Positions 9,857 to 55,465 of a DNA stretch of 64,000 bases are shown here, one piece after another. This DNA is from Asterochloris sp. CNOR1 (taxonomy: Eukaryota; Chlorophyta; Trebouxiophyceae; Trebouxiales; Trebouxiaceae). The stretch's first letter is position 1; each line of letters opens with the position of its first letter. The notes under the pieces were generated by a model that was not told the DNA's origin, ran no database searches, and worked only from the letters and a program-made list of their open reading frames with translations. A program made the translations under genes and the position numbers. The stretch spans positions 1,984,001-2,048,000 of the forward strand of contig OZ017746.1 in the NCBI GenBank assembly GCA_963969365.1, given 5' to 3'.

Positions 9857-12800
9857 TCATAGGTGCAGCGTGGCCAGCAGGCTGCCGCACAGGTCCATGA
9901 AGAGGAACACCTCGCCCTGTAGACGCTGCAGCATGGGGAGGCATATGTGTTGGCCTGAAGTCATGGCAAGAAGCATGCAAGAATATGTGTTTGTCTGAGT
10001 ATCACTCACACATGCTGGCTTCCTGCAACCAGCATGCTGCTGCTTGACAGACCATCACAGCAGCCACACCAGCTACCAAATCTCCCAGGAAGACAGCTGT
10101 GCTATGGCGACAAAACTGCTTACTTGGACACCTGGCAGCATGGTGCAAGGGACACTGACGTGTCTCCCCCGGCCCCCTCCCCACTCCCCATGCTCGCCCG
10201 ATGGCCAGCACGTACTCTCCCTCCCTCAATCACGGCAGCGTCACTCCCATGACAGCCAGCTATGCCCTTGCAGCCAGCCATGCAAGCGGCAGCCAGCCAG
10301 GGTCTCCCACGCCTCACCTGGCCATCTGGCATGCACTCTCCCACGTGCACCCCTTGCAGCATGGCCCACAAGGCAGCCGATTGGGGTGCCCCAACCCCTC
10401 ACCTGGATGTCCAGCATGTACTCTCCCTCTCGCACTGCTGGCAGCGTGGCTTTGTACAGCTGCACCTCAAATTTGAGGACACGCTCGTGGCTGACAGGCA
10501 GCCCATCCTCAATGCTGCGGGGGCTGCTGGCATCCATGTCCTGCTGCCCCTCATTCTCCATGTCCCCATCCTCATCCTCTGCAGCACCCAGCCAGTACAG
10601 GTTGAGCTCTGCTGCAGCACTCGGCCAGTAGGGTGAGCCTTGAGTGCCCACCACAACTGTCTTTGACTACTCGCTTTTATCAAGCAAAGCAGAGTGGACT
10701 TTGTAGCACAGGCTGGAGAGGTCTTCTTTGCATCACAATGAAGTTGGGAATGCAGGAGCAATGACTGACTAGGTAGTGTGGCTGCAACTGTTTGCTTCAT
10801 GAGCCATGAAGCACCCCAGCAGCCCACCCACCCTGTGCTGCTCTTCCAGGCGCTTGCTCTGGCCTGAACTCCAGAAAACCCTGATCAAGCCCTGCGCCCT
10901 CACCGGTAAGCCCGATGGACTTGCGACACTTGAGGTTGTAGGGCCCCAGCTTCTTCCAGTGCACGCTGTTGGACTTCAGGCAGCGGTACACCTCTGCCAT
11001 CACGTGGCTGGGGTGACCCCGCGACTGCATAGCCAGCCGCCACCGCCGCTCTGCCACCATGCGCTGCTGGGGGAGCATGCTTTCGTGGGTTGTGCCTGCC
11101 GCAACAAGCAGCTGTGAGGGCGCAGGGTTTCTGACAAAGCCGCAGTTCGCTGTGGAAGGCATGCTTTCATGGGTGGTGCATGCAGCATGGCACAGCCGTC
11201 AGTGCGCAGGGCCACCGTCAAAGCCCTGCAGGTTTCACCAACATCAAAACGCAAAGCTGTGCAAAGTGATTGGACGGTACAGACGCTGATGCTGCAGACC
11301 CTTCAGGTTGTGGGCAGTGTCTCAGCAGGCAGTGGCTGGTGCACAGGAAGCAAGGACTGAAAGCCAGCCCTTTACCTCAGTGCCAGCGACTCAGGGCACA
11401 AGCGGCTGCACAGCAGCTGCCTTACACCACTGCCCTCGTGCAAGCAGCAGTGCTGGCCACCACTCATCAGCCACATGCGGCCCCACCTGCATTGTGCTGC
11501 ATCATGTTGTCCCAGGCCTCTGTCATCTCTGCGCGCAGGTAGGCGCTGCTGGGCATACGGCGCCGGTTGTCTGACACCAAATAGTATGCTACAGAGGCCT
11601 GCAATGCAGCCATTACCCATATGTCTGATGTGATTTAGCGAGGTCCTGGACAGTCAGTGCGCCTGGCGGTGAATGGCGGATCTGTGCAGGTTAGCTTGCC
11701 GCTTCAGCCCCTTTTTAGATGCGCAGTGGCAGCAGCATGCTCAACACATCAGATAGAGCCCTGACAGCTTGAATGAGGAGGTGCAGGTTTCTTGGCATGT
11801 GGCAAGGCATGATTTTGCAAAAAGCAGTAGGATCATCCTCAAGTCCCTGCCGAGGGCACCAAAGGCCAAAGCAGCCAGTGCGACTGAAGGCATGGCTAAT
11901 GCCAACATACCTTGTTCCCTGTTCCCGCATATGGGGGCTCTTTGAGGGAGCTGATGATGTGGTTGTTGGAAGGCATCTCAGTGGCCAAGGCAGCAGATGT
12001 GTGCGGTGCAGAGACATGGCGATCGACCCCCACCTTATTCTGCACACGGCTTTTGAGGGAGCTGACGATGTGGCTGCGTGTGAAGCCCAGCCTGACGACC
12101 TCGTCCACCATCTCCTGGTCAATGTTGGCGCTGGTGGCCATGGTGTCTGCCTGCATGACTGCCAGGTAGCGCGGCAGGTGCTGCATGAACCAGGGGTGCT
12201 GCCTGCACGGCATGGACAAGGATTTGTGACACTCAGCCATGTGCCTAATGGTAAGACAACGGCGCTGGTAGCACTGACTCTGCCTGCAAGACTGCCAAGC
12301 ATCAGGCCAAGTGCTGCGCGAGCGAAGGGTGCGGCTTGCGCAGGTTGAAGATAGAGTGGGTCAGCAACACAAGCTTGCCTGATCTCATACTTGGCGATGC
12401 GTTCTAGAGCTTTTGCAGGTGTGTGCAGGCTGCCGAGAGGTAAGCTGAGACAAGGCTGACCTCACTTGTGGGCAGTGACCTGCTTGAGGGAGGTTGCTAG
12501 AGTCTCTCTGAGACTGACGAAAGCAGGCTATGCAGGACCAGCCGGCTGCAGCTTACTGGGTCAGGCTAGGCAATGCCCACTGAATGCAAGGGGGCAGGCA
12601 GACTGATGTACAGGCCAAGCAAGCTGGCACAGGCAGGACAGCTTGCAGCGCACCTGATCTCAGGGATCGTGATGCGCTTCAGGGGGTCCACCAGGAGCAT
12701 GCGGGGAATGAGGTCGCGCGCTCCCGGGGACAGGTGGCTCGGCAGGTTGTAGATCCCGTTTTTGATCTTCTTGAACAGGTTGGGGATGTTCTCATCGTCA

Positions 12801-55465: not shown

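Follow-up and report, generated by a model that had tools for sequence, protein, structure and literature searches.

Decayed copies of exon edges in their own introns across an Asterochloris genome: a probable record of intron growth by short-range duplication

Introduction

Intron growth is often attributed to mobile elements. A stretch of 64,000 nucleotides from Asterochloris sp. CNOR1 (C1:1984001-2048000, hereafter the window) raises the question of whether introns can also grow from their own borders. Its initial annotation had noticed, in a gene at 1372-6276, SnRK1, DCD-kelch and PUS3, decayed copies of exon borders in the adjoining introns, and had read them as a trace of tandem duplications by which introns grow and are even gained. 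We asked whether such copies are genuine, how far they extend in the genome, and whether they speak for the growth of existing introns or for the birth of new ones.

Sample and gene models

The sample comprised 314 kb, that is, the window and 250 kb from five other contigs of the same genome (56,383,464 bp in 21 contigs). The G+C content is 0.586 in the window and 0.567-0.599 in the other blocks, and the gene content and introns of the window resemble those of a green alga. For gene structures, we relied on a simple splice-aware finder whose training set was this same sample; its splice sites are CAG|GTGAG at the donor and a very strong CTGCAG|G at the acceptor. In the trained models, positions -5 to -3 of this acceptor are T in 92%, G in 90% and C in 95% of cases, a preference stricter than usual in plants. 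There were 843 predicted introns, of which 753 (at least 70 nt) entered the junction-spanning edge test; the predicted median length is 87 nt for exons and about 185 nt for introns. Searches for PDB homologues confirmed the gene models of fumarase, SnRK1 and PUS3, and the exons of the latter were also confirmed by the PUS3 protein of Coccomyxa; in the DCD-kelch gene, kelch is clear and the DCD domain lies below the Pfam cut-off. The finder miscalls some copies as tiny exons, as observed in the fumarase and PUS3 models, so that per-intron counts are approximate.

Exon edges recur in their own introns

When 40-nt exon edges were compared with the introns that they flank, a score of at least 70 was reached by 47 of 632 upstream edges (1.75 expected) and 31 of 641 downstream edges (1.45 expected). 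With junction-spanning queries and a score of at least 75, 61 of the 753 introns had a donor match and 66 an acceptor match, against 1.7 and 5.8 expected from other genes; the reverse-strand control gave 2 and 7, respectively, and junctions of the same gene at least three introns away gave 2.2 and 5.0. At a score of at least 90, there were 37 donor and 40 acceptor matches for 0.2 expected each. Own edges, therefore, far exceed those of other genes in the very comparison that had been proposed to refute the initial annotation, and the decayed border copies that it described in adjoining introns, at both donors and acceptors and arising repeatedly, agree with these tests.

At least one copy is present in 119 of the 753 introns and in 35 of the 52 gene models. 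The edge matches total 127, about 7.5 being expected by chance, and the duplicated units occupy about 8.6% of the intron sequence (16,277 of 189,739 bp, chance matches still included). Copies lie at a median spacing of 113 bp (5th-95th percentile 52-279 bp), in line with the 75-240 bp first reported. Their position had been given as the intron side of the true junction; this is so for 56 of 84 donor and 50 of 79 acceptor matches anchored on exons, the other 28 and 29 fall on the exon side, in many cases where a further junction is called. Copied exon edges in their own introns are, in sum, genuine and genome-wide.

Local duplication and the place of junctions within it

The window contains 14 same-strand ungapped self-matches of at least 28 bits at a spacing of 70-520 bp, and the five 50-kb blocks contain 38, 54, 38, 76 and 52; bins of the same size at spacings of 4, 8 and 16 kb yield 0-1.3 per block. 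A blastn search of the window against itself yielded six same-strand matches of at least 34 bits within 300 bp; in the same 300-bp bin, there were no inverted-strand matches, and three shuffled windows also gave none. The window is the sparsest of the sampled stretches by near self-match count; by introns with an edge copy (20 of 202 in the window, 6 of 132 in C2, 12 of 127 in C3 and 32 of 122 in C4), C2 and C3 are as sparse or sparser and C4 is the densest. Copy density varies several-fold among regions (the window and the C1-C4 and C9 blocks). Block C4 holds, at about 19670-20140 and inside a predicted gene, a dense repeat array with a spacing of about 62 bp and multiples thereof, its copies being 65-95% identical; in block C2, at about 24000-25500, a MORN-like gene (named by eye) has repeated exon and intron units, and its copies may be true coding repeats.

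Recurrence in many introns is what one would also see if introners, a mobile intron-like family, had seeded the copies. Such a family, however, does not account for the preference of introns for their own edges (61 and 66 matches versus 1.7 and 5.8) or for near pairs that all but vanish at 4-16 kb, and we give this explanation practically no credence. The copies are direct duplicates lying within one gene near their source, as in internal gene duplication. Among the 22 youngest pairs, the alignment covers at least 0.8 of the spacing in 16 and less in six, by a noisy extension measure (null one-sided extension: median 6 nt, 95th percentile 96).

How special are junctions in this landscape? The whole sample contains 295 non-redundant pairs at 50-620 bp spacing, 94 of them spanning a donor and 100 an acceptor, versus 58 and 57 under random placement. 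Pairs of an intron with an edge number 70 (56 expected), and those of an edge with an edge 61 (12.3 expected, the count including copies miscalled as exons); exon-only pairs are as expected (20 versus 20), and intergenic pairs number five for 15 expected. As intron-only pairs (78 versus 93.6 expected) are nearly as common as under random placement, exon edges are only about 1.6-1.8-fold special. Part of the junction excess may be one of ascertainment, the exon member of an exon-intron pair being constrained, and part may come from the labelling of copies as exons by the gene finder. What we see is mainly general local duplication, made visible at junctions through the constraint on the exon member and through geometry.

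Copies in individual genes

Of the four genes first named, SnRK1 and PUS3 account for the majority of the window's strong cases. SnRK1 has five copies scoring 117-177, plus a second donor copy and an N-terminal pair:

10391..10450, minus strand: exon end and donor, source edge (exon 10403-10611, peptide EYMLDIQ), from the gene model
10306..10365, minus strand: donor copy 1, lying 85 bp inside the intron, CAG|GTGAGG kept; absent from P0126, present in P0125 and, over the part that its frame covers, in P0124
10200..10245, minus strand: donor copy 2, spacing 206 bp, in a 32-codon stretch absent from P0126
11053..11103, minus strand: acceptor edge, source (edge test)
11139..11187, minus strand: acceptor copy in intron 11096-11486, spacing 84, AG lost
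12146..12206, minus strand: acceptor edge, source (edge test)
12279..12339, minus strand: acceptor copy in intron 12203-12465, spacing 133
13213..13275, minus strand: donor edge, source (PDB homology and edge test)
13043..13107, minus strand: donor copy in intron 12893-13216, spacing 169, gaggtga kept
13419..13476, minus strand: acceptor edge, source (edge test)
13862..13913, minus strand: acceptor copy in predicted intron 13475-14004 (edge test)
14963..15161, minus strand: predicted N-terminal part, pair 14963-15001 / 15123-15161, spacing 160

The PDB AMPK alignment is weak around exon 10403-10611, a region that has 95% identity over 58 residues in the relative P0126. Querying with the frame that crosses the last predicted intron of SnRK1 returned three related frames (P0124, P0125 and P0126) besides the window's own. 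The exon is common to all three, and each passes the exon end into intron-like sequence that aligns to the window intron; only the copies vary. P0125 reads through copy 1; the P0124 frame enters this copy and ends within its first part. In P0126, the exon is followed by sequence matching the window from 10313 onward, which is what follows the donor of copy 1; about 83 nt are missing by coordinates, for a unit of 85. A second gap of 32 codons, from about window 10244, where copy 2 begins, removes copy 2, which is itself not strictly adjacent to its source. The tail of P0126 matches the window with an E value of about 6e-13 to 8e-13, the next best window piece being at 3e-4. Only protein frames represent the relatives here, and their DNA is inferred from these; the apparent presence and absence of copies between relatives in this one intron supports intron growth by tandem duplication, and the change is more probably a duplication than a deletion in P0126.

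The PUS3 case is also strong, with a donor copy at 93 bp and acceptor copies at 90 and 170 bp:

53788..53856, minus strand: exon end, peptide EVPVCVLHVRGTAFLWHQ (PDB homology and Coccomyxa homologue)
53695..53763, minus strand: donor-side copy, spacing 93, reads EVPLCVLHVRGTAF
54421..54463, minus strand: true acceptor and exon start (VVALRLRSSG), confirmed by the Coccomyxa homologue
54511..54553, minus strand: acceptor copy 90 bp upstream, in frame, CTGCAG|G kept
54600..54621, minus strand: acceptor copy 170 bp upstream, CTGCAG|G kept

On the minus strand, the PUS3 intron region is open over window 54416-54687, through the acceptor copy 90 bp upstream. The ENA frame P0001 has both acceptor copies and, next to them, apparently lacks about 14 nt (from a frame jump). 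That both copies recur there beside a small difference in length speaks against an assembly error, and the difference from the window suggests a possible intron length polymorphism. P0002 matched PUS3 only marginally (E 0.001).

The other two genes fared less well. DCD-kelch has an array and a pair, with weaker edge matches (76-106), and is a moderate case. The gene at 1372-6276 is a weak case: it has one match scoring 76 (1788-1814/1882-1907), close to the threshold at which chance alone would supply about 7.5 of the 127 matches, and its model has a better one (96) at 36-76/93-132, outside those limits. A further pair belongs to a gene model ending in a glycosyltransferase 28 C-terminal domain.

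18916..19219, minus strand: predicted DCD-kelch gene, array of three decayed copies (18916, 19031, 19153), each about 115 bp from the next
17607..17766, minus strand: predicted DCD-kelch gene, pair 17607-17643 / 17730-17766, spacing 123
41549..41711, plus strand: pair 41549-41604 / 41656-41711, spacing 107, reaching a predicted acceptor of the glycosyltransferase 28 model

In fumarase, a conserved gene whose true exons were identified by human homology, copies are found at six junctions: donor copies after NEVIANR (+201), NDMR (+198) and YATQ (+196), and acceptor copies before SIEILGG (82 bp), VNMEQ (125 bp) and VVGNH (311 and 399 bp).

Anatomy and decay of the copies

Copies are of the same junction type as their source, and the copied segment takes in the splice site together with part of the flanking intron. 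Where a match is anchored on the exon and lies on the intron side, similarity persists beyond the junction, at about 0.4-0.6 per base over some 10-20 bases; as it declines only gradually into the intron, the duplicated unit spans the junction. Many copies retain the splice motif and some still read like the exon peptide, as first reported. A rival proposal is that they are functional, serving as exons used alternatively or in mutual exclusion, or as alternative splice sites.

In junction-spanning ungapped pairs, retention of GT (82 of 107) and of AG (91 of 107) does exceed the rates elsewhere in the same alignments (255 of 398 and 378 of 561), but these counts are biased to kept motifs, since only alignments that crossed the junction qualified and exons called by the finder were among them. 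Retention is 54 of 79 (GT) and 44 of 60 (AG) for partners not called as exons, and 30 of 56 and 35 of 50 for exon-anchored intron-side copies, close to or modestly above neighbouring bases. Earlier dinucleotide counts (GT 12 of 41, AG 18 of 32) were set aside on account of gap drift and of the exclusion of called copies. Inside 669 introns, strong donor-like decoys are not enriched on the sense strand (193, for 274 antisense and 257 shuffled), nor are acceptor-like ones (118 sense, 117 antisense, 130 shuffled), a result due in part to the finder treating sites of this kind as exons.

The reading frame also bears on function. Over the short stretch compared, 43 of 97 phase-known exon-only matches have neither frameshift nor stop, and in PUS3, the spacings of 93 and 90 are divisible by three with a frame open through both copies. 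About half of the matches, however, have a frameshifting gap (47 of 97), an in-frame stop occurs in seven of 46 ungapped copies, spacing shows no frame preference (45/42/40 modulo three), and P0126 does without both SnRK1 copies, its exon being intact. Mismatches at donors, by codon position (0.135/0.17/0.27), fit one constrained and one free copy; those at acceptors are nearly even (0.18/0.19/0.21). As a class, the copies do not keep the open frame of alternative exons, single cases such as PUS3 staying open, and we hold a functional role to be an unlikely explanation of the pattern.

Growth or gain of introns

We favour, with good confidence, a process in which frequent short-range direct duplication spanning existing junctions lengthens introns, the inner copy decaying. 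The genome would undergo such duplications at spacings of roughly 50-280 bp and, as predicted exons and introns are about unit-sized, many of them would span a splice junction. Two donors, or two acceptors, would then stand in tandem; the outer site, adjoining the retained exon, would still define the mRNA, and the second copy would end up within the intron and decay, leaving the intron longer by one unit. The outer of the duplicated sites is probably the one used; the molecular cause may be replication slippage or break repair.

A distinct proposal, made by Rogers, is that the intron itself is one member of a tandem duplication of exonic sequence containing AGGT; such an intron should look like the downstream exon at its start and like the upstream exon at its end. 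The initial annotation had suggested intron gain by duplication across AG|GT, and the rampant local duplication speaks for it. In the gain register (upstream exon's end directly before the acceptor, spacing equal to intron length; introns of at least 60 nt), there is a slight excess at low scores (17 versus 10.3 at 9 or more, nine versus 4.95 at 10 or more), but a score of at least 14 is reached in one intron (0.1 expected) and of at least 16 in none (0.05 expected). The sole score-14 case, window 54536-54615, is flanked by two acceptor copies of PUS3 that the finder took for exons. Intron length minus spacing is below 20 in 15 of 127 edge matches, and in seven of 83 once exons under 30 nt are left out. 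We inspected 12 such gain-like matches with a score of at least 80, in eleven introns: five adjoin called exons of at most 18 nt, apparently miscalled micro-exons, and two more, which share an intron, look like a duplicated acceptor. At C4 23876-23960, there is a weak candidate for gain. Introns with copies have a median length of 282, and the median spacing is 113. The register being near chance, the claim of intron gain is not supported, a handful of candidate cases aside, and gain as the source of these introns is highly improbable.

The claim of growth by tandem duplication stands on firmer ground, with duplications spanning existing junctions, ordinary ancestral lengths and copies absent from P0126. 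Intron length minus spacing has a median of 134 (127 matches), or 179 for the 83 with both exons of at least 30 nt, compared with 184 for all introns; intron lengths before duplication would thus have been ordinary.

One may go further and see in junction duplication the main engine of gene-structure change in this lineage, giving both longer introns and a lasting stock of intact spare sites that the spliceosome uses at a low level; a candidate spare site is the PUS3 acceptor 90 bp upstream, in frame and open. We regard this extension as rather doubtful; if true, a single mutational process would feed both intron length and alternative splicing.

Comparison with known systems

Introns of this lineage appear to lengthen while the protein is unchanged. 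The lineage displays introns growing from their own borders, copy by copy, with presence and absence between relatives in one intron, so that growth rates and the fate of duplicated splice sites could become directly measurable. There is also a warning here, as gene finders can call copies as false exons in such genomes.

The closest known process is internal gene duplication in eukaryotes, which Gao and Lynch (PNAS, 2009) reportedly found in 8-17% of genes, with a stress on new introns. The likeness lies in the local direct duplication of gene segments, exon-intron borders included; the difference is that 35 of 52 gene models have a copy here, a figure not directly comparable with 8-17% given different thresholds and the merging of genes in our models, and that the outcome is longer introns. 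In the known case of duplication across an exon-intron boundary, where splice signals are inherited, a new intron results, whereas none is shown here. In the portions available to us of the literature (titles and the starts of abstracts, most subscription journals being outside the coverage), we did not find the pattern described for green algae, and the available parts of the Coccomyxa (PMC3446292) and Asterochloris (PMC6652019) genome papers make no mention of it. Tandem duplicates with proto-splice sites are described, in the part consulted, for Drosophila (PMC2891723), where cases are few, tandem duplication with novel intron positions accounting for five of 31 as judged by gained positions. 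Introners, according to the section consulted (PMC9860276), likewise make intron content grow repeatedly, but as a dispersed family, when the copies described here are local. The mechanism is of a known kind, internal gene duplication, and its density is the notable part.
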